This document shows, in pieces, positions 1 to 10,556 of a stretch of DNA of 64,000 bases. The DNA is from Vicingaceae bacterium (GTDB lineage: Bacteria; Bacteroidota; Bacteroidia; Flavobacteriales_E; Vicingaceae). The first letter of the stretch is position 1. Each line of letters begins with the position of its first letter. Position numbers and translations under genes: made by a program. The stretch covers positions 1 through 64,000 of the forward strand of contig JAGYIE010000001.1 of NCBI GenBank assembly GCA_018402765.1. The letters are read 5' to 3'. Under the pieces are notes generated by a model. It had not been told where the DNA came from and did no database searches. It worked only from the letters and a program-made list of their open reading frames with translations.

Positions 1-69
1 ACTGCAACCCCCATCAATATCGCTCCAAGGAGCCTAACCGTAAACATGTTTATTTATCTAGGGCTTTAA
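1..69 (+). CDS. 3' end of a tail-collar-like secreted protein (partial)
   Basis: The first 22 codons in frame 1 read into a TAA at 67-69 and end in PINIAPRSLTVNMFIYLGL. This matches almost residue for residue the C-terminus of the complete gene that starts 10 bases later (PINITPRSLSVNMFVYLG). It is therefore the end of an upstream paralogue whose body lies outside the window. The pair is a tandem duplication, probably co-transcribed. The C-terminal motif resembles the last strand of phage collar-type domains. Confidence 0.8.
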   Translation, partial: TATPINIAPRSLTVNMFIYLGL

Positions 70-79
70 TCTAAACACT

Positions 80-1006
80 ATGAAAAAAATCATTTATACC
101 CTTTTAGTTTTGTTTGGCGCAAGTCAAGTACAAGCCCAAGTTGGTATCGGGACGAATAATCCTGACAATTCGGCCATGTTGGAGGTAAAAACCACAGAGC
201 GCGGTGTATTGTTCCCACGCATGACAAGTGCGCAACGGACGGGAATTGCATCTCCTGCCAATGGCTTGTATGTTTTTGATACGAATACAAATTCACTTTG
301 GTATTATAACGGCACGTTATGGATTAACACAATAGCAGAGGCTTCTCTTGGTGATGTTAAATCTGGGTTTCAAACAGCGGATCATTCCGGTTGGATCATC
401 CTGGATGGAAGAGCTGTCAACACCTTATCTGCCAACCAACAGGCTGTTTCCATTTCATTGGGGTTCACGACAAACTTGCCGGATGCTTCCTCTGCCTATT
501 TGGTGCAAAACGGGTCCGGAATGGGGGCAGTGGCTGGAGCCAACACCACCACACTCACTCAAGCGAACTTGCCGAACGTGACGTTTAATGGAACTGCTGC
601 GAATGCTGGAAATCATTCGCATACTACTGATCCAGCTCCGGTGAATACTTCAACAAGTGGTAATCACAATCATAGTGGCACTACTAATACAACAGGGAAT
701 CATGTTCACAATATGACTTTTCAGAGAAATCAACAAGATCACGGGATAACAGGAAAAATTGGGGATAATGGTGAATATGGCGATGTTGCATCTTCCGGAT
801 CTATGCAAGCAGCTGGAAACCATTCACACTCAGTGACCACAGATACACAAGGCAATCATACGCATAGTGTTGATATACCTTCAACAACATCTTCTACAAA
901 CGGATCTCATATTCATACTGTAACCGTTTCTTCGGGTGGCTCTGCTACCCCTATCAATATTACTCCAAGGAGTTTGTCAGTTAATATGTTTGTTTACCTC
1001 GGTTAA
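80..1006 (+). CDS. Secreted phage-tail-collar-like protein with six HxH motifs
   Basis: A 308-residue protein with a Sec signal peptide (residues 1-19, ending QVQA). An N-terminal region typical of Bacteroidetes secreted fibre-like proteins follows (VGIGTNNPDNSAMLEV, residues 21-36), then a collar-like domain starting at GDVKSGFQ (91-98). Residues 175-285 are low complexity, rich in G, N, T and S, with six G[NS]HxH motifs at 179-181, 196-198, 208-210, 248-250, 260-262 and 277-279. The end (PRSLSVNMFVYLG) looks like a collar C-terminus. In phage T4 long tail fibre tips, HxH repeats from three chains bind iron along a needle; a similar trimeric tip is inferred here, not shown. It sits between a paralogue and a T9SS adhesin, suggesting a cell-surface role. 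Confidence 0.75.
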   Translation: MKKIIYTLLVLFGASQVQAQVGIGTNNPDNSAMLEVKTTERGVLFPRMTSAQRTGIASPANGLYVFDTNTNSLWYYNGTLWINTIAEASLGDVKSGFQTADHSGWIILDGRAVNTLSANQQAVSISLGFTTNLPDASSAYLVQNGSGMGAVAGANTTTLTQANLPNVTFNGTAANAGNHSHTTDPAPVNTSTSGNHNHSGTTNTTGNHVHNMTFQRNQQDHGITGKIGDNGEYGDVASSGSMQAAGNHSHSVTTDTQGNHTHSVDIPSTTSSTNGSHIHTVTVSSGGSATPINITPRSLSVNMFVYLG

Positions 1007-1018
1007 TAAATTAAGAAA

Positions 1019-4000
1019 ATGAAGAAATTAATAACACTTTTATTCCTTTCTCCAACGTTATTGTTGGCGCAAAGTCTTATCTCAACAGGAAACGAGATAA
1101 TATACGTAGAACCAGGAACGGCTATATCTTCGGTTAATGGATTTCATATGTCCGGAACTAGTTCTAATGTTTTATCAATTGAACAAGGGAACACACCATA
1201 TAACTTAGCCCCTGCAAGCCGCAGAGTTTTGGTAACCAACTCCGCTGCTCGTTTGGAGGTTCGGAATTTAGGTCGCACGCAAATTGCTAACTTTTATATG
1301 GATGTAGATTATGCAGCAACGCGCGTAATCGCTGATTTGCGTATTCAAAACACCAATTCTGCTAGTTCCTATAATGTGGGTTTGGAGCAAATTTCGCACG
1401 CAAATTTCAACGACATTCCTGTGGAATGGACAATTACGCGTAACGCATCGGCGCCATCTAATGTGCATAATTTGGTTTTTTTCTGGGGGAATGAATTAGA
1501 AACAGCACAAATTCCTGTAAAGCGGTTGTTTATTTTTGATAATGCTATAAATGAATGGGTTCAACTGCCTGATGCTAATACATCTGTAGATGAGTTTAAT
1601 AAAACACTTGTTTTTTCAGGTTTTCGTGGTGAACTCAATTCTACCAGATTCATGATTGCTCAAGCTGAGGCTAATGTTTTGCTTACAGGTAATTTATTGC
1701 CTTTTGATTTATGTTCTGCCGGAAGTAATTCTGTGCAAAGTTTTTCAGTTCAAGGTACTAATTTGTCTAATGCTTTGTCTGTTCATGCTCCCCTTGATTT
1801 TAGTGTATCGCTAATTCCTCAAGGCCCGTTCTTAGATTCTGTAACGATTAATCCAATTGGGTTTAACGTTCAGCCTACTGTCATTTATATAAAATTAAAT
1901 CAAGGGGCTACGTTAAATGGTTCTGCTACCATTTTAGCAAGTTCTAGCGATATTTTCTATGGAAATGTACAAGATAGTATAGTTATTAATGGAAATACGG
2001 ATACTATAAACCCTAGTATTATAGCCCCTTTGGATATTACAACTTATTTAGTTAATACCTGTAGGTTGTTTAATCTTGAATTGGGCGTACCAACAACTGC
2101 TGATAACTGTACAGTGGCATCTGTGATAAACGATGCACCAACAAGCTTTACAGTAGGAACTACCTCAGTAATATGGACAGTAACCGACGGATCTGGAAAT
2201 ACTGCTACAGCTACGCAAAATGTATTGGTAGTTGATACCGTTAAACCAACATTAGCAATTCCATTAAATCTTACCGTAAGTGCCAACAATGGTTGTGATG
2301 CTACGGGAGTTCAGTTAGGAAATGCGACAGCTGTTGATAACTGTGCAATAGCATCGATCACCAATAATGGATTATCAGCATATCCAAAAGGAGTGACCAA
2401 TGTAACATGGACCGCAGTAGATGTCAATGGAAATATTACTACAGCTATACAAACAGTAACGGTAATTGACAACAGCAAACCATTAATGACTGTACCGTCA
2501 AATTTAGTTATCGCAGCGAATGCAAATTGTGAAGCAGTAGGAGTAAACCTTGGAACTCTAATAGCTTCAGATAATTGTGGAACAGTAACCATAACGAATG
2601 ATGCACCCTTAGCCTTCCCAATGGGAATGACTACCGTAACTTGGACAGCGATTGATAGTGTAGGCAATAGCACTACAGGAACACAAACCGTTCAGGTAAA
2701 CGATAGCACAGCCCCAACAATTGCAGCTCCGTCAGCAGTTACACTATACACCAACAATGGCTGTTTTGTAATGAACCCATCATTGGGCGTACCAACAACT
2801 GCTGATAACTGTACAGTGGCATCTGTGATAAACGATGCACCAACAAGTTTTACAGTAGGAACTACCTCAGTAACATGGACAGTAACCGACGGATCTGGAA
2901 ATACTGCTACAGCTACGCAGAATGTATTGGTAGTTGATACTGTTAAACCAACATTAGCAATTCCATTAAATCTTACCGTAAGTGCCAACAATGGTTGTGA
3001 TGCTACGGGAGTTCAGTTAGGAAATGCGACAGCTGTTGATAACTGTGCCATTTCATCGATCACCAACAATGGATTATCAGCATATCCAAAAGGAGTAACC
3101 AATGTAACATGGACCGCAGTAGATGTCAATGGAAATAGTACTACAGCTATACAAACAGTAACGGTAATTGACAACACAAAACCATTAATGACTGTACCGT
3201 CAAATTTAGTTATCGTAGCGAATGCAAATTGCGAAGCAGTAGGAGTAAACCTTGGAACTCCGATAGCTTCAGATAATTGTGGTACGGTAACCATAACGAA
3301 TGATGCACCCTTAGCCTTCCCAATGGGAATGACTACCGTAACTTGGACAGCGATTGATAGTGTAGGCAATAGCACTACAGGAACACAAACCGTTCAGGTA
3401 AACGATAGCACAGCCCCAACAATTGCAGCTCCGTCAGCAGTTACACTATACACCAACAATGGCTGTTTTGTAATGAACCCATCATTGGGCGTACCAACAA
3501 CTGCTGATAACTGTACAGTGGCATCTGTGATAAACGATGCACCAACAAGCTTTACAGTAGGAACTACCTCAGTAATATGGACAGTAACCGACGGATCTGG
3601 AAATACTGCTACAGCTACGCAAAATGTATTGGTAGTTGATACCGTTAAACCAACATTAGCAATTCCATTAAATCTTACCGTAAGTGCCAACAATGGTTGT
3701 GATGCTACGGGAGTTCAGTTAGGAAATGCGACAGCTGTTGATAACTGTGCAATAGCATCGATCACCAATAATGGATTATCAGCATATCCAAAAGGAGTGA
3801 CCAATGTAACATGGACCGCAGTAGATGTCAATGGAAATATTACTACAGCTATACAAACAGTAACGGTAATTGACAACAGCAAACCATTAATGACTGTACC
3901 GTCAAATTTAGTTATCGCAGCGAATGCAAATTGTGAAGCAGTAGGAGTAAACCTTGGAACTCTAATAGCTTCAGATAATTGTGGAACAGTAACCATAACG

Positions 4001-6559
4001 AATGATGCACCCTTAGCCTTCCCAATGGGAATGACTACCGTAACTTGGACAGCGATTGATAGTGTAGGCAATAGCACTACAGGAACACAAACCGTTCAGG
4101 TAAACGATAGCACAGCCCCAACAATTGCAGCTCCGTCAGCAGTTACACTATACACCAACAATGGCTGTTTTGTAATGAACCCATCATTGGGCGTACCAAC
4201 AACTGCTGATAACTGTACAGTGGCATCTGTGATAAACGATGCACCAACAAGCTTTACAGTAGGAACTACCTCAGTAATATGGACAGTAACCGACGGATCT
4301 GGAAATACTGCTACAGCTACGCAAAATGTATTGGTAGTTGATACCGTTAAACCAACATTAGCAATTCCATTAAATCTTACCGTAAGTGCCAACAATGGTT
4401 GTGATGCTACGGGAGTTCAGTTAGGAAATGCGACAGCTGTTGATAACTGTGCAATAGCATCGATCACCAATAATGGATTATCAGCATATCCAAAAGGAGT
4501 GACCAATGTAACATGGACCGCAGTAGATGTCAATGGAAATATTACTACAGCTATACAAACAGTAACGGTAATTGACAACAGCAAACCATTAATGACTGTA
4601 CCGTCAAATTTAGTTATCGCAGCGAATGCAAATTGTGAAGCAGTAGGAGTAAACCTTGGAACTCTAATAGCTTCAGATAATTGTGGAACAGTAACCATAA
4701 CGAATGATGCACCCTTAGCCTTCCCAATGGGAATGACTACCGTAACTTGGACAGCGATTGATAGTGTAGGCAATAGCACTACAGGAACACAAACCGTTCA
4801 GGTAAACGATAGCACAGCCCCAACAATTGCAGCTCCGTCAGCAGTTACACTATACACCAACAATGGCTGTTTTGTAATGAACCCATCATTGGGCGTACCA
4901 ACAACTGCTGATAACTGTACAGTGGCATCTGTGATAAACGATGCACCAACAAGTTTTACAGTAGGAACTACCTCAGTAACATGGACAGTAACCGACGGAT
5001 CTGGAAATACTGCTACAGCTATGCAAAATGTATTGGTAGTTGATACCGTTAAGCCAACGATTATAGCACCATCAAATATTGCCTTATCAGTGGATTCAAA
5101 TTGCCAGGTTAGCGGATTAGCATTAGGTCGTGTAATTAGTTCAGATAACTGTGCAGTGGCTTCCGTAACGAATAATTCACCATCAGTTTTTGGAGTAGGT
5201 CAAACCATTATTACTTGGACCGTAACCGATGTAAATGGGAATATCGCTACAGCAGATCAGTTAGTAACAATCTCAGACATTACACCTCCTGTAATTACAG
5301 CTCCTTCAGACATTAGCGTAGCTACGAATGTAGGCTGTAGTGCAAATGGAGTAGTGTTAGGCACCCCAATTGCAACCGATAACTGTGCAGTTACGAGTAT
5401 TACGAATAATGCCCCTGTAACCTTCCCAGAAGGAATCACAACGGTAGTTTGGACTGCTGTTGATGCCAATGGAAATAGAGCTACTGCACAGCAAGTGGTC
5501 ACAGTAATAGATAGTACAGCACCAGTATTAACACCACCTGCAGATTTAGTTTACAACACGAACAATGGCTGTTTTGCAGTAAACGTTCCATTAGGGACCC
5601 CAATCGCTACAGACAACTGTTTCTTAGCAGCATTAACCAATAATGCTCCATCAAGTTACCCAATTGGAAATACTACCATAACATGGACAGCAACAGATGT
5701 AGAAGGCAATAGTACTACAGCAACACAATTGGTAACTATTGTTGACGCACAGAAACCGACGTTAATCGTACCTTCTGATATTGAAGTAAATTCGAATCTT
5801 GGATGTTCTGCCACAAATATTGCTTTAGGAAACCCTTTAGTAACTGACAACTGCGGTATAAAAAACATTAGTAATAATGCCCCAACGGTATATCCATTAG
5901 GTCAAACTACTGTTGTTTGGACTGTAGAAGATAGTAGTGGTAATATAACAACAGACAATCAATATGTATTGGTAAAGGATACCATAATTCCAAATGCCCA
6001 GTTTAGAGATATTACCATTAAACTAAACGCAGATGGCAGCGATTATGAAATAACAGTAGCAGATGTAGATAATGGAACTAGCGATAACTGTGGTATCCAA
6101 TCTATCGAGTTGAGTCAATATTTCTTTAATTGTATTGATTTAGGTCAGAATAGAGTTACAGCAACTGTAATTGATAATTATGGAAATGAAGTAGATAAGA
6201 GTTTTATCGTAACGGTGACACCGAGTAATGAGGATGTAGACTTTGATGGCATAGATGATGCCTGTGACGATGATGTAAATACAACTGTAGTAAAAGTACC
6301 CAATGGATTTACACCTGACGGCGATAATTTTAACGACTACTTTGTAATACCTGGATTAGGTCAGTATACTCAAGTAGAATTGGAAATCTTTAATCAATAC
6401 GGAAATAGAGTTTACCAGAGTAAAAACTACCAAAATGATTGGGATGGAACATCTAGTGTAACAGGCTCACCTGTAGATGATGATACTTACTTCTATGTAT
6501 TAACATTAGATGGAAAGGTCACAAAGCAAGGCTATGTTTACATTAATAGAATACGCTAA
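1019..6559 (+). CDS. Giant HYR-repeat surface adhesin, T9SS type B sorting domain
   Basis: An 1846-residue protein. Residues 1-18 are a signal peptide; about 20-330 are a non-repetitive beta-rich region. Then come about 17-18 HYR (immunoglobulin-like) domains of roughly 78 residues, each with a DNC motif and a W-T-V/A-D-x-x-G-N strand. The last about 85 residues (from VPNGFTPDGDNFNDYF) are the gliding-motility-type C-terminal domain (type B), which sends cargo through T9SS and usually needs a PorP/SprF partner. Such a partner starts 24 bases downstream. Four nearly identical 702-bp units plus a partial fifth lie inside the gene. Known HYR proteins of this build are surface adhesins; the ligand is unknown. 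The small reverse-strand open frames beneath the repeats are composition artefacts. Confidence 0.93.
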   Translation: MKKLITLLFLSPTLLLAQSLISTGNEIIYVEPGTAISSVNGFHMSGTSSNVLSIEQGNTPYNLAPASRRVLVTNSAARLEVRNLGRTQIANFYMDVDYAATRVIADLRIQNTNSASSYNVGLEQISHANFNDIPVEWTITRNASAPSNVHNLVFFWGNELETAQIPVKRLFIFDNAINEWVQLPDANTSVDEFNKTLVFSGFRGELNSTRFMIAQAEANVLLTGNLLPFDLCSAGSNSVQSFSVQGTNLSNALSVHAPLDFSVSLIPQGPFLDSVTINPIGFNVQPTVIYIKLNQGATLNGSATILASSSDIFYGNVQDSIVINGNTDTINPSIIAPLDITTYLVNTCRLFNLELGVPTTADNCTVASVINDAPTSFTVGTTSVIWTVTDGSGNTATATQNVLVVDTVKPTLAIPLNLTVSANNGCDATGVQLGNATAVDNCAIASITNNGLSAYPKGVTNVTWTAVDVNGNITTAIQTVTVIDNSKPLMTVPSNLVIAANANCEAVGVNLGTLIASDNCGTVTITNDAPLAFPMGMTTVTWTAIDSVGNSTTGTQTVQVNDSTAPTIAAPSAVTLYTNNGCFVMNPSLGVPTTADNCTVASVINDAPTSFTVGTTSVTWTVTDGSGNTATATQNVLVVDTVKPTLAIPLNLTVSANNGCDATGVQLGNATAVDNCAISSITNNGLSAYPKGVTNVTWTAVDVNGNSTTAIQTVTVIDNTKPLMTVPSNLVIVANANCEAVGVNLGTPIASDNCGTVTITNDAPLAFPMGMTTVTWTAIDSVGNSTTGTQTVQVNDSTAPTIAAPSAVTLYTNNGCFVMNPSLGVPTTADNCTVASVINDAPTSFTVGTTSVIWTVTDGSGNTATATQNVLVVDTVKPTLAIPLNLTVSANNGCDATGVQLGNATAVDNCAIASITNNGLSAYPKGVTNVTWTAVDVNGNITTAIQTVTVIDNSKPLMTVPSNLVIAANANCEAVGVNLGTLIASDNCGTVTITNDAPLAFPMGMTTVTWTAIDSVGNSTTGTQTVQVNDSTAPTIAAPSAVTLYTNNGCFVMNPSLGVPTTADNCTVASVINDAPTSFTVGTTSVIWTVTDGSGNTATATQNVLVVDTVKPTLAIPLNLTVSANNGCDATGVQLGNATAVDNCAIASITNNGLSAYPKGVTNVTWTAVDVNGNITTAIQTVTVIDNSKPLMTVPSNLVIAANANCEAVGVNLGTLIASDNCGTVTITNDAPLAFPMGMTTVTWTAIDSVGNSTTGTQTVQVNDSTAPTIAAPSAVTLYTNNGCFVMNPSLGVPTTADNCTVASVINDAPTSFTVGTTSVTWTVTDGSGNTATAMQNVLVVDTVKPTIIAPSNIALSVDSNCQVSGLALGRVISSDNCAVASVTNNSPSVFGVGQTIITWTVTDVNGNIATADQLVTISDITPPVITAPSDISVATNVGCSANGVVLGTPIATDNCAVTSITNNAPVTFPEGITTVVWTAVDANGNRATAQQVVTVIDSTAPVLTPPADLVYNTNNGCFAVNVPLGTPIATDNCFLAALTNNAPSSYPIGNTTITWTATDVEGNSTTATQLVTIVDAQKPTLIVPSDIEVNSNLGCSATNIALGNPLVTDNCGIKNISNNAPTVYPLGQTTVVWTVEDSSGNITTDNQYVLVKDTIIPNAQFRDITIKLNADGSDYEITVADVDNGTSDNCGIQSIELSQYFFNCIDLGQNRVTATVIDNYGNEVDKSFIVTVTPSNEDVDFDGIDDACDDDVNTTVVKVPNGFTPDGDNFNDYFVIPGLGQYTQVELEIFNQYGNRVYQSKNYQNDWDGTSSVTGSPVDDDTYFYVLTLDGKVTKQGYVYINRIR
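2081..5052 (+). repeat. 702-bp tandem repeat array, about 4.2 copies, inside the HYR adhesin gene
   Basis: Units begin at 2081, 2783, 3485, 4187 and 4889 with TTGGGCGTACCAACAACTGC, exactly 702 bp (234 codons, three HYR domains) apart. The fifth diverges near 5052. In the stretches compared, units 1, 3 and 4 appear identical. Unit 2 differs at several codons (SVTWT for SVIWT, IDNT for IDNS, VIVANA for VIAANA, GTPIAS for GTLIAS). The start of unit 5 shares the unit 2 variants. Length is a multiple of three, so copy-number change keeps the frame. Confidence 0.95.
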
Positions 6560-6583: not shown

Positions 6584-7504
6584 ATGAATACGTTAAAAAA
6601 TCTTTTAAGTATAGTAGCAGTTTTTACGGTCTCACTTTCCTTCGGGCAAAGTGAGCCGAGCTACCGACAAAATCAATTCAATATATTGATGCTAAATCCT
6701 GCCCAAGCAGGAGCAACAGGCTATAATGATATTTCACTGCTTTCGTCGAGAGCATTAGGGGGCTTTACCGGTGCACCAAAAACGATAAACGCAACAGGTA
6801 ATTTTCGGGTGTCGAAGAACTTCGGTGCTGGAATTACAGTATTGTCACACCAACTAGGACCTGTAAAGAGCGTACAAGGAGCATTAAATCTATCATACCA
6901 TTTGGAATTGAGTAGAAAATACCGCTTAGCAGTTGGAATTAAAGGTATAGCATCCTCAGTAAATATTGATTTACCTTCTTTATCCACTACACGGTTAGAT
7001 GATCCGAATATGTCGAGAGCGCTATCTACAGGCACCCAGTTTGATGGAGGCTGGGGATTGTTATTTTATAGTAGTAAGTTTTACGTTGGCTTGTCTCAAC
7101 CAAGAGTAGCAAAAACGAAGTTCTTAAATGCAGATATGTCAGATTATATGTCGAGCAATAGTTTTATCGGTTACTTAGGAGGAGATTTTCCACTTAACAG
7201 AACGTTAGATATTCGACCTAATGTAGTATCTAGATATACGGAAGATTCACCATTATACCTAGAAGTAAATACGATTTTGACGTATGATAAAATGTTCGAT
7301 TTTGGATTATCTTATCAATTGAATAGTAATGTAGGTATGATTTTAGGATATGATATCAATCGCAAATTATATTTTGGTTATGCATATTCTTATCCAATAT
7401 CTGCATTGAATACGGTTTCTGTTCAATCGCATGAATTGGTTATACGGTTTAGAATTAACGAGCATTTGAGAAGTAGGTTTCAAGGCCCTCGTTTCTTCAA
7501 CTAA
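6584..7504 (+). CDS. PorP/SprF family type IX secretion outer-membrane protein
   Basis: A 306-residue protein with a signal peptide (cleavage after SLSFG) and the family's N-terminal signature (PSYRQNQFNILMLNPAQAGA, a run of beta strands with GAGITVLSHQLGP). Family members form outer-membrane beta barrels that attach or help export a T9SS type B cargo, as SprF does for SprB. The gene lies 24 bp after the HYR adhesin and 25 bp before the OmpA-like gene, so the three are very likely one operon and this is the dedicated partner of the adhesin. Confidence 0.93.
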   Translation: MNTLKNLLSIVAVFTVSLSFGQSEPSYRQNQFNILMLNPAQAGATGYNDISLLSSRALGGFTGAPKTINATGNFRVSKNFGAGITVLSHQLGPVKSVQGALNLSYHLELSRKYRLAVGIKGIASSVNIDLPSLSTTRLDDPNMSRALSTGTQFDGGWGLLFYSSKFYVGLSQPRVAKTKFLNADMSDYMSSNSFIGYLGGDFPLNRTLDIRPNVVSRYTEDSPLYLEVNTILTYDKMFDFGLSYQLNSNVGMILGYDINRKLYFGYAYSYPISALNTVSVQSHELVIRFRINEHLRSRFQGPRFFN

Positions 7505-7529: not shown

Positions 7530-10500
7530 ATGTTTTTAAGAAACAGTGTTCTTATTTTCTGTTTTGCAGTCAGTACAATAGCAATTGCCCAACAAGAGAC
7601 GTATAAACTATTTCCCACATGTTTTTCAGACACCAATGATCAGTTTGGCGTTAGAAAGGTAGGTAATGAATTGTATGTATTGTCCAATGCATTCGATTCT
7701 GATAGCAATTTACTTATTGATAGGTATACCAATAAGCCCTATACCGACTTATACCTCGTAGACAGTTGTAAACTAAAAATAGCCACTTTGCAAAGTGCGC
7801 AAATAGGAGAAGAGGCTTTATTAAGTTCCCCGAAATACGACGGTCCCATTAGCAGCGATAAAGGAATGTCAATCATATTTTTTTCCAATAACAATGAGAA
7901 GTTGATTGGAGATAAGATGGGAATATTCTACTTAATCAAGACGGAGAATGGATGGAGTGAGAGTTTTTCATTTCCATTGAATTCAGAAAAGTATAATGTC
8001 ATTCATCCATTTTATAGTGAAGAAACCGGTCGCGTATATTTTGCCTCTGATATGCAACAAGGAAAAGGCGGTTTTGATATTTACAGCATAGAATTTGATG
8101 GAGTAGAATTTGGAAAGATATCATCAGAAGACAGCATAAATACCACATTTAATGAAACCTTTCCTCAATACGCACACGGTAGAATTTATTTTACTTCAGA
8201 TGGTCATAATAGTGTAGGAGGATTAGATGTTTTTTTTAGTCAAGCAGGAGAAATCATTCATCTACCGGAGCCAATGAATACAGTATATGATGATTTTGAC
8301 GTACATTTTATTGACAAATCAAGTGGTTTTTTATCTACAAATAGAGGATATGAAGGCGCTTCTGATCAAGTATATTACTTCATTCAATCAGCTCAAGAGC
8401 CAGCTGAACAGTTAATTGCCAAGAAGAAAGAGTTACTAGCTGCTCAACAAACCAAACTAAAGCTTACCGAAGAAGTTATTGAAGAGTTGGTATCGTCGAA
8501 TTCGGATAACACCTTGTATAAAGCGCTACATTTATCAGCCAACTCATTAATTGAACAACAAGACGCTATAGCCGATCAGCTATACAAATACGAATCTAGA
8601 TCTCAGGAGAAATTAGCAGCGATAAATAACGAGATAGAAGCTTTGATTTTGGCAGATGAGTCGATAGATTATACAGAAAAATCTTTTCGCTTGAGTGAAT
8701 TATCCACGATGGTTAATGGGTTAAATAAAAGTCAATCGACAGAAAAAAAGCAAAAATTACTACGCCAACTTTCAGATAAGGTACTATTAAAACTGGATAA
8801 TCAACCCACTAGTTTATTAATCAACTTGGCAAGTTACAAAAATGACCTAGCTAGTTTGGCGGAATTAGAATCACAGCAGAGAGAAGTTAATCAAGAGATT
8901 AATAGTTTGGCAAGTATCCTACAACAAGAAAGTGTAAAATCAGCTATAGAATCACCCGCACTAGCTCAGTTGATCGCTATCACAAGTTCTGACAATAATG
9001 CTGCAATAGGGTCATCAACTGAATCAAAAACATTAGCTCGCTTGAATCAAGAAAAAGCTGACCAAATAAAATTACAAGGGTATGAATCTCAACAGATGTT
9101 GCTTCTCGATAAATATAAGCGTCAGCGTGTAAACGATATTATATCAGATACAGCTAAAAGTGCTGAAGAAAAGCTGGCTGTAATCGGTCAGATTAATACA
9201 TTACTAGCATCTTCAGGAAGCTTTAAGAATACAGCTGAAATAAAAGCATTTGCAAGTCAAGCATCAGACATTCAGGAAAAAGCAGGTTTTAAATCTTCTA
9301 CTAATGCAACTAATGAGTTTAACGATTTAATTAAACTGGCCAATGAGCAGAGGTATATCATTGAAAAATCTAAAACTGATCCAACAATTCTAGCGAACTC
9401 TTCCGAAAATAATCAAGCAGTTCAGAAGGTATTAACATCTATAGAAAATAGTTTATTGAAGCAATTGGTTGCTGAAGGTAAGTTGAATCAAGTAAATACA
9501 GATAAAGTTGCACAAATACTGAACACGTATGCTCAACAGTTATCCAATACAAAGGAAAATCAAGAGTCAATTAGACTGACTAAGGAGTTAAATCAAGCCT
9601 TAATTACGGTAGATTCATCGCTGAATATTACAGAAGAGAAGCAATTGGAGTTATTGGCGAGTCAAAAAAATAGAACAGCATTCAAGCAATTCCATCAGTT
9701 AGAAAATCAGCTAGCATATGCAAATCTACAAGCATTATCGCTTGAAGGAGGAGAGAATAAGCGTAATGCTAATAAGTATGTTGGAATTGTTCAACTGCAT
9801 ACTCAACCATACCAAATGGGAAAATTAATTGTAAAAGATGCAGACGGGGCGATAATTGATTCACTACTTACAGACGAGAATGGGGTTTTTATGTATCATT
9901 CATTAAAATCTACAAATGTTACAATTGAGCCATTTAATTCTTCTGAGAGCGATGCAATAACTTTTTATGATGTAGACGGAGCTAATTTGGCAATTAATAA
10001 GATGGAGCAAATTTACAGCAACACAACCAAGGCTGACCATTCAGGGATTCTTGCTCAATTGCTAATTGATTCCCCGATAAAAAGTGAAAAAGGCAATGCT
10101 AATTTATCTCGCTTTATAGTAAGGGATGGAGCTAGTTCAGAGCATTACGCAAACGCTCATAGCGCAGAAAATAGCAATGTTAAGTTGAGTAATGCCTTCA
10201 TGACCACATTGATTGCAAATTATAAAATGCCAGCTATACAATTTAGGTTCGATTCTTATCAGGTACAACGAAAGTACGAGCAGGAATTAAATGAGTTAGT
10301 GAAATTCTTAGCAGACTATCATCAATTTGCAATAGTTGTAAAAGGTCACACAGATATAATTGGAGATGCGACATATAATCAATTGCTTTCGGAAAAAAGA
10401 GCAATAGCAGTTAAGCGCTATTTAGTTAGAAAAGGGTTATCAGACGAATCATTCGTCGTAAAAGGATATGGACCTAAAGAACCGGTATCATCTAATGATA

Positions 10501-10556
10501 CTGAAGAAGGAAGAAAGCGCAATAGACGGGTAGAGATTCGCCTAGAAGTGAAATAA
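7530..10556 (+). CDS. OmpA-family protein with PD40-like propeller and a long helical spacer
   Basis: A 1008-residue protein. A signal peptide (1-20, ending AIAQ) precedes a PD40/WD40-like beta-propeller region (about 30-285; strands such as GRVYFASDMQQGKGGFDIYS and GRIYFTSDGHNSVGGLDVFF). Then comes a very long E/Q/K/L-rich helical region (about 293-745), a short beta domain (about 755-830), and a C-terminal OmpA peptidoglycan-binding domain (about 900-1008; FDSYQVQ, GHTDIIGDATYNQLLSEKRA, NRRVEI). The OmpA domain should anchor it in the periplasm. PD40-OmpA partners next to PorP/SprF genes are common, but this helical spacer of about 450 residues is unusually long. Last gene of the adhesin operon; a terminator follows at 10582. 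Confidence 0.9.
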   Translation: MFLRNSVLIFCFAVSTIAIAQQETYKLFPTCFSDTNDQFGVRKVGNELYVLSNAFDSDSNLLIDRYTNKPYTDLYLVDSCKLKIATLQSAQIGEEALLSSPKYDGPISSDKGMSIIFFSNNNEKLIGDKMGIFYLIKTENGWSESFSFPLNSEKYNVIHPFYSEETGRVYFASDMQQGKGGFDIYSIEFDGVEFGKISSEDSINTTFNETFPQYAHGRIYFTSDGHNSVGGLDVFFSQAGEIIHLPEPMNTVYDDFDVHFIDKSSGFLSTNRGYEGASDQVYYFIQSAQEPAEQLIAKKKELLAAQQTKLKLTEEVIEELVSSNSDNTLYKALHLSANSLIEQQDAIADQLYKYESRSQEKLAAINNEIEALILADESIDYTEKSFRLSELSTMVNGLNKSQSTEKKQKLLRQLSDKVLLKLDNQPTSLLINLASYKNDLASLAELESQQREVNQEINSLASILQQESVKSAIESPALAQLIAITSSDNNAAIGSSTESKTLARLNQEKADQIKLQGYESQQMLLLDKYKRQRVNDIISDTAKSAEEKLAVIGQINTLLASSGSFKNTAEIKAFASQASDIQEKAGFKSSTNATNEFNDLIKLANEQRYIIEKSKTDPTILANSSENNQAVQKVLTSIENSLLKQLVAEGKLNQVNTDKVAQILNTYAQQLSNTKENQESIRLTKELNQALITVDSSLNITEEKQLELLASQKNRTAFKQFHQLENQLAYANLQALSLEGGENKRNANKYVGIVQLHTQPYQMGKLIVKDADGAIIDSLLTDENGVFMYHSLKSTNVTIEPFNSSESDAITFYDVDGANLAINKMEQIYSNTTKADHSGILAQLLIDSPIKSEKGNANLSRFIVRDGASSEHYANAHSAENSNVKLSNAFMTTLIANYKMPAIQFRFDSYQVQRKYEQELNELVKFLADYHQFAIVVKGHTDIIGDATYNQLLSEKRAIAVKRYLVRKGLSDESFVVKGYGPKEPVSSNDTEEGRKRNRRVEIRLEVK

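Follow-up and report, generated by a model that had tools for sequence, protein, structure and literature searches.

The open reading frame at positions 80-1006 of the window, the 64,000 nucleotides at the start of contig JAGYIE010000001.1 of a Vicingaceae bacterium (assembly GCA_018402765.1), probably encodes a cell-made, Sec-exported fibre whose tip is related to those of the T4 fibres gp37 and gp12, with a metal-stiffened trimeric needle and a variable tip that acts as an adhesin; where related genes stand in arrays of three, the three products would then be the chains of a heterotrimer. In the mechanism that we propose, the cell would export the fibre protein by means of a Sec signal peptide with glutamine at +1, and three chains would wind together through the N-terminal domain and the collar. 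Each rung formed by the HxH motifs of three chains would hold one metal ion, iron or zinc, on the fibre axis. The resulting needle would stiffen the fibre and direct the hypervariable tip loop outwards, where it would serve as an adhesin towards a surface or a partner cell. The findings suggest that a needle with which viruses attach has been converted by cells into a surface fibre of their own, sometimes built from three different chains. The wider proposition has about even chances in our judgement: Bacteroidota build gp37-type surface needles, in many lineages as heterotrimers of three tandem paralogues, the step from one gene to three was taken several times, and the gene in the window encodes the last subunit.

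Architecture of the fibre protein and its HxH ladder

The reading frame lies on the + strand and specifies 308 amino acids. The signal peptide, collar-like core, six G[NS]HxH motifs and collar C-terminus that the initial annotation had read from the nucleotide sequence were all recovered (Table 1). Glutamine at +1 is typical for Sec export in Bacteroidota (Q-rule; PMC10653852) and is invariant in two alignments of relatives (42 and 44 sequences). Residues 1-86 match an Aureispira tail fiber domain protein at 53%; in structure comparisons of the model, residues 43-86 match the N-terminal domain of Mtd (1yu0, Z 6.0) and part of the N-terminal domain matches the trimerisation domains of collagen XV/XVIII (Z 4.6-5.3). 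The last 28 residues complete the collar-like core, and the ladder occupies residues 177-280.

Table 1. Features of the fibre gene and of its surroundings in the window
Positions	Strand	Feature	Remark
1..69	+	C-terminal end of upstream paralogue (TATPINIAPRSLTVNMFIYLGL, then stop)	truncated by contig start
80..136	+	signal peptide, hydrophobic leader MKKIIYTLLVLFGASQVQA, then Q20 (+1)	Bacteroidota Q-rule
137..340	+	N-terminal QVGIGT..W domain, residues 20-87, QVGIGTNNPDNSAMLEV..WYYNGTLW	common to Bacteroidota tail-fibre-domain proteins
341..607	+	collar-like core, residues 88-176, GDVKSGFQTADHSGWIILDGR	with C-terminal strand aligns to 1OCY and 2XGF
608..712	+	descending limb GNHSHT, GNHNHS, GNHVHN	first HxH (residues 179/181) invariant, 40/40 aligned cores
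713..814	+	tip insert, ~34 residues, hypervariable in family; candidate receptor-binding tip	from alignment
815..919	+	ascending limb GNHSHS, GNHTHS, GSHIHT	last HxH (residues 277/279) invariant, 40/40 aligned cores
920..1006	+	C-terminal return to collar (..NMFVYLG; end TPINITPRSLSVNMFVYLG) and stop codon	final LG invariant; F, Y nearly so
1019..6559	+	HYR-repeat adhesin, 1846 aa, CHU_C type IX sorting domain (CHU_C, TIGR04131)	12 bp downstream of fibre gene
6584..7504	+	PorP/SprF protein	
7530..10556	+	OmpA-family protein	

The HxH motifs start at residues 179, 196, 208, 248, 260 and 277, all six in G[NS]HxH context; 20,000 composition shuffles gave 0.58 HxH on average and at most 4. Their spacing is palindromic (17,12 / 40-residue tip / 12,17), and the sole longer step (17 versus 12) has its mirror counterpart on the opposite limb. 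The paralogue at the end of contig C14 of the same genome is likewise symmetric (12,12,12 / 39 / 12,12,12), as are the ladders of the closest relative, locus L050 (17,17 / 44 / 17,17), and of loci L054, L051, L056 and L075, with near-symmetric ladders in Aequorivita and Dysgonomonas. Of the 18 complete members that carry four HxH or more, 17 have the same number of rungs on each limb; the Dysgonomonas protein L082_t3 is cut off by its contig end. Such symmetry is what an antiparallel hairpin would require, and neither chance nor an unstructured histidine-rich region is expected to be its source.

Predicted fold

An AlphaFold2 monomer model, computed from an alignment of 42 sequences, is confident for the N-terminal domain and the collar and has pLDDT values below 50 in the needle, which might be compatible with a single chain taken out of an intertwined trimer. 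The hairpin of the window protein therefore rests on the spacing symmetry together with a second, independent model of a Chryseobacterium member, in which strands surround the HxH positions. The top PDB match of the window model in Foldseek was the T4 gp37 tip (2XGF, E 0.004). With VIA-align, residues 88..308 matched T4 gp12 (1OCY, Z 6.1) and 2XGF (Z 5.9), the aligned ranges being 341..526 of 1OCY and 813..1026 of 2XGF, with the C-terminus going back to the collar; T4 baseplate chain AI aligned alongside 1OCY over the same residues. Matches at Z 5-6 cover about 62 residues and, taken alone, are middling values. The Chryseobacterium model matched T4 baseplate chain AI (Z 5.4), 2XGF (Z 5.3), the cyanophage A-1(L) fibre (4.5) and C24 (2.9), and also the Pa223 fibre and gp10.

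Sequence searches for phage collar and fibre domains, a check proposed in the initial annotation, gave a divided result: PHROGs returned tail fibre and collar matches, and the Pfam phage tail collar family PF07484 matched neither the window protein nor anything else in the whole genome, with one match (E 0.006) among 42 relatives. A phmmer search of the single window protein against the PDB found no match, and the family profile matched only weak phage fibres there. A tail protein of phage ZRG1 carries the same type of HxH ladder (5+4) and matches gp37 (E 3.9e-18). Despite the PF07484 miss, kinship with gp37 and gp12 thus rests on two models, PHROGs and this bridging phage sequence, and a T4 gp37/gp12-type receptor-binding tip is a well supported prediction of the fold. 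These fold and profile matches, the ZRG1 ladder and the conservation of the HxH motifs together uphold the gp37-type collar and needle that had first been read from the motifs.

Tandem arrays of one or three genes

Base 1 of the window is base 1 of the 997-kb contig C1, and bases 1-69, ahead of the fibre gene, encode a C-terminal end that shares 85% identity, across 20 residues, with that of the window protein. At the end of contig C14 lies a complete paralogue of 326 aa, 56% identical to the window protein and with eight HxH (4+4), and behind it come the opening codons of another copy, closely resembling the start of the window gene; no third contig of the genome carries a gap copy. On this sequence evidence, the window gene closes a tandem array of three or more copies that is split by the contig break. 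Most simply, the array would comprise three copies, the middle one lost in the assembly gap, although more copies are possible. Three consecutive paralogues were read directly in relatives, while in this bacterium the first and last copies were read, with the contig break within the array. Elsewhere in this genome (contig C10, L003 889-3247), two tandem genes encode secreted proteins of 381 and 382 aa that have the fibre-type N-terminal domain and another C-terminal part.

Among the listed places in 30 whole genomes, we counted 24 triplets, 3 pairs (one of them non-adjacent), 16 single genes and no larger array. Under geometric array sizes, exactly three genes in 24 of 27 arrays has p ~5e-12; with every lineage counted once (six with triplets, two with pairs), p is ~0.004, the lineage count being a matter of judgement. 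A sample of Chryseobacterium, the genus of locus L052, contains members in 46 of 148 genomes, with about 39 triplets, about 30 singles and no clear pair among the listed places (counted by eye). At locus L084, an apparent pair was a triplet on closer look. In two quick maximum likelihood trees, with SH-aLRT support only, genes cluster by their place in the array (first, second or third) across Weeksellaceae and Flavobacteriaceae, and several distinct sets of three can be seen; as judged from these sequences, the three-gene state appears to have arisen several times.

To our knowledge, the fold is trimeric in every solved relative. In the DSLV2 virophage, the gp37-like products of three consecutive genes assemble into a 1:1:1 heterotrimer, as shown by co-purification (PMC12724248). 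With this precedent and the trimeric solved relatives, a heterotrimer is the best reading of the triplets, which would be best explained as encoding three different chains of one fibre, single-gene members being homotrimers.

A possible, though on balance doubtful, alternative is that each gene forms its own homotrimer and that a tandem array amounts to a repertoire, a choice of adhesins with varied tips and needle lengths that provides antigenic or receptor diversity. Hypervariable tips would suit such a repertoire, as would the Psychroflexus locus L075, where the fibre is mixed with proteins that have only the N-terminal domain in common with it, and for Bdellovibrio a repertoire of 21 trimeric proteins, the mosaic adhesive trimeric (MAT) fibres, has been published (PMC10769870). 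The size of a repertoire should be free to vary, yet arrays at the places listed in the 30 whole genomes nearly always hold three genes and never four or more, and genes keep their place in the array from genus to genus and from family to family. Rung number is also constant within the triplet at 25 of 28 loci, one further locus being cut by a contig end; shared ancestry could account for this, and plain inheritance may be the explanation. The repertoire fares better in the clade of the window protein itself, where paralogues differ in rung number (4+4 in the first copy of the window array and 3+3 in the last; 2+2 and 3+3 at L050), which counts against a heterotrimer there. Complementary limbs in Dysgonomonas L072 (second protein descending 15,15,16,14; third protein ascending, from collar to tip, 15,15,16,15) were considered as proof of a heterotrimer and dropped, because descending and ascending steps also add up to near 28 inside each chain.

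Several triplets have features of their own. In the Dysgonomonas triplets (L072 2815-6558, L082 1059-4511), ladders have 5+5 rungs and come in three types (long/short, even and short/long limbs); all three ladders of L072 span 153 residues. In a Polaribacter triplet (L067 4202-6879), each of the three proteins has lost most of the HxH ladder. A fourth small secreted protein of 190-200 aa, with the same N-terminal domain and a conserved F(F/L)YMPSV domain, adjoins triplets in Chryseobacterium (L052 9093-9665) and Dysgonomonas (L072 1628-2230) and is a possible anchor or cap.

Distribution and conservation

A scan of 84,980 genomes yielded 59 loci in Bacteroidota, nearly all encoding secreted proteins, in Chryseobacterium, Flavobacterium, Tenacibaculum, Aquimarina, Polaribacter, Psychroflexus, Aequorivita, Chishuiella, Dysgonomonas and others. 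The closest relative is encoded in a Crocinitomicaceae MAG (L050, 60%), with the gene order fibre-fibre-HYR protein. Within the host's GTDB family, 17 of 46 genomes (its own included) match the whole protein via the N-terminal domain, and the core is matched by the host alone.

The HxH motifs are the most conserved feature of the family: the two collar-proximal ones (H89, H91, H187 and H189 of the core alignment) are unchanged in all 40 aligned cores, and the tip is hypervariable. This conservation, and the discussion of HxH in marine phage tails as iron ligands (PMC11705849), would also suit a ladder that serves mainly in metal storage or scavenging, by capture of iron or zinc at the surface, and not in adhesion. 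We consider that function unlikely, as a single HxH per limb, found in most members (the window type is an extended needle), fits a structural clamp better; variability moreover resides in the tip and not in the ladder, and no metal-uptake gene was found among the neighbours inspected.

An origin from the tail-fibre gene of a decayed prophage or from the fibre of a contractile injection system, with no role as a cellular adhesin, would agree with phage tips being the closest folds and with the related solved structure C24 of Bizionia (6OV6), which is ascribed to a temperate phage as cited in PMC11821841, but is very improbable given that nearly all relatives have a signal peptide with glutamine at +1, that no phage genes, structural ones included, were seen in the flanks read (C14 upstream, C1 downstream) or among the relatives' neighbours inspected, that the reading frames are kept as ordered sets across genera, and that 2.9 million viral contigs hold only 3 relatives, two of whose reading frames, when read, start without a recognisable leader (a scan with the window protein alone gave no match there). 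The signal peptide and the non-phage neighbours support the initial annotation in regarding the protein as cellular and exported.

Genomic neighbourhood and candidate regulators

The T9SS adhesin that had been noted beside the fibre gene is indeed its neighbour, as a separate protein of the CHU_C/TIGR04131 type. SprA is encoded in the genome, and the fibre protein has neither a T9SS sorting domain nor a lipobox. The gene order fibre-CHU_C adhesin-SprF-OmpA is repeated in Tenacibaculum (L105 5212-12537), and this order recurs in part at L050, L077 and L085. The idea that the fibre serves this adhesin draws weak support from these loci, while most relatives are without such order; a general T9SS partnership was rejected, as most triplets have no adjoining T9SS adhesin. 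The repeats of the HYR adhesin, about 702 bp long, look nearly identical in DNA (window 2311-4779), and minus-strand open reading frames recur within them at 2311, 3013, 3715 and 4417; to judge from the sequence, the region is likely recombination-prone and variable in length.

Upstream on C14 lie glycosyltransferase and regulator genes. Directly upstream of the array is a TPR-LuxR-type HTH regulator that has a hydrophobic stretch in its middle (L005 8217-10007), and TPR-AraC/LuxR HTH regulators adjoin fibre genes at L076, L079, L080, L089, L093, L095, L097, L099-L104 and L108. We infer a regulated surface fibre whose tip would bind a glycan or a partner surface.

Implications and comparison with known systems

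The use of phage-like trimers by cells (MAT, PMC10769870), HxH needles of phages (PMC11705849) and heterotrimers from three virophage genes (PMC12724248) are already known. The papers searched describe no secreted family of gp37-type needles in Bacteroidota that follows a one-or-three gene rule, though this does not prove that none has been described. The new use of the fold put forward in the initial annotation is upheld only in part: the family is widespread in Bacteroidota, and MAT is a published precedent (PMC10769870). If our reading is true, domestication of phage fibres extends beyond Bdellovibrio to common Flavobacteriales, including about one third of the sampled Chryseobacterium genomes (46/148). 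The one-or-three rule would make heteromery of trimeric phage-type fibres in cells a simple question of co-expression, with the virophage as precedent. The mirror-symmetric HxH ladder offers a sequence rule by which such needles may be found and their length and metal number predicted.

As in the T4 gp37 tip (2XGF), the collar of the window protein is closed by its C-terminal strand, and HxH motifs stand on both limbs beneath a variable tip; the gp37 sequence, as aligned with the phage ZRG1 protein, likewise has HxH on either side of the tip. Unlike gp37, the window protein is the product of a host gene, has a signal peptide and a Bacteroidota N-terminal domain in place of the virion shaft, possesses a regular ladder with 12- or 17-residue steps and equal limbs, and leaves PF07484 unmatched. 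The T4 gp12 short fibre tip (1OCY, 5IV5) gives the best structural score for the collar part, whereas gp12 belongs to a phage baseplate and is not known to have a comparable long HxH ladder. T4 gp12 has a single zinc-binding HxH site. C24 (6OV6; Pellizza et al. 2020) combines a gp37-like tip with a Flavobacteriia background and was matched by both models (Z 2.8 and 2.9), but the structural score is weak and the protein is assigned to a temperate phage of Bizionia argentinensis, according to its citation in PMC11821841.

The MAT fibres of Bdellovibrio are a published example of phage-fibre architecture put to use at the cell surface (PMC10769870), and the fibre proposed here would work in a similar way. 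Like the family described here, they are host-encoded, with a signal peptide, a phage-fibre-like architecture, a constant N-terminal domain and variable tips, and they are trimeric (PMC10769870). Gp37, collar and iron are all unmentioned in that paper; a search of the window protein gave no NCBIfam match to the MAT N-terminal domain (NF053851), and the relative L054 matched it weakly, with 33 bits, below the cut-off of 60. It is on the DSLV2 virophage, with its 1:1:1 heterotrimer from three genes, that our proposal of a cellular heterotrimeric needle is based. Although viral and not secreted bacterial proteins, the DSLV2 tail proteins come from three consecutive gp37-tip-like genes with conserved positions, and are the closest parallel to the bacterial triplets (PMC12724248).
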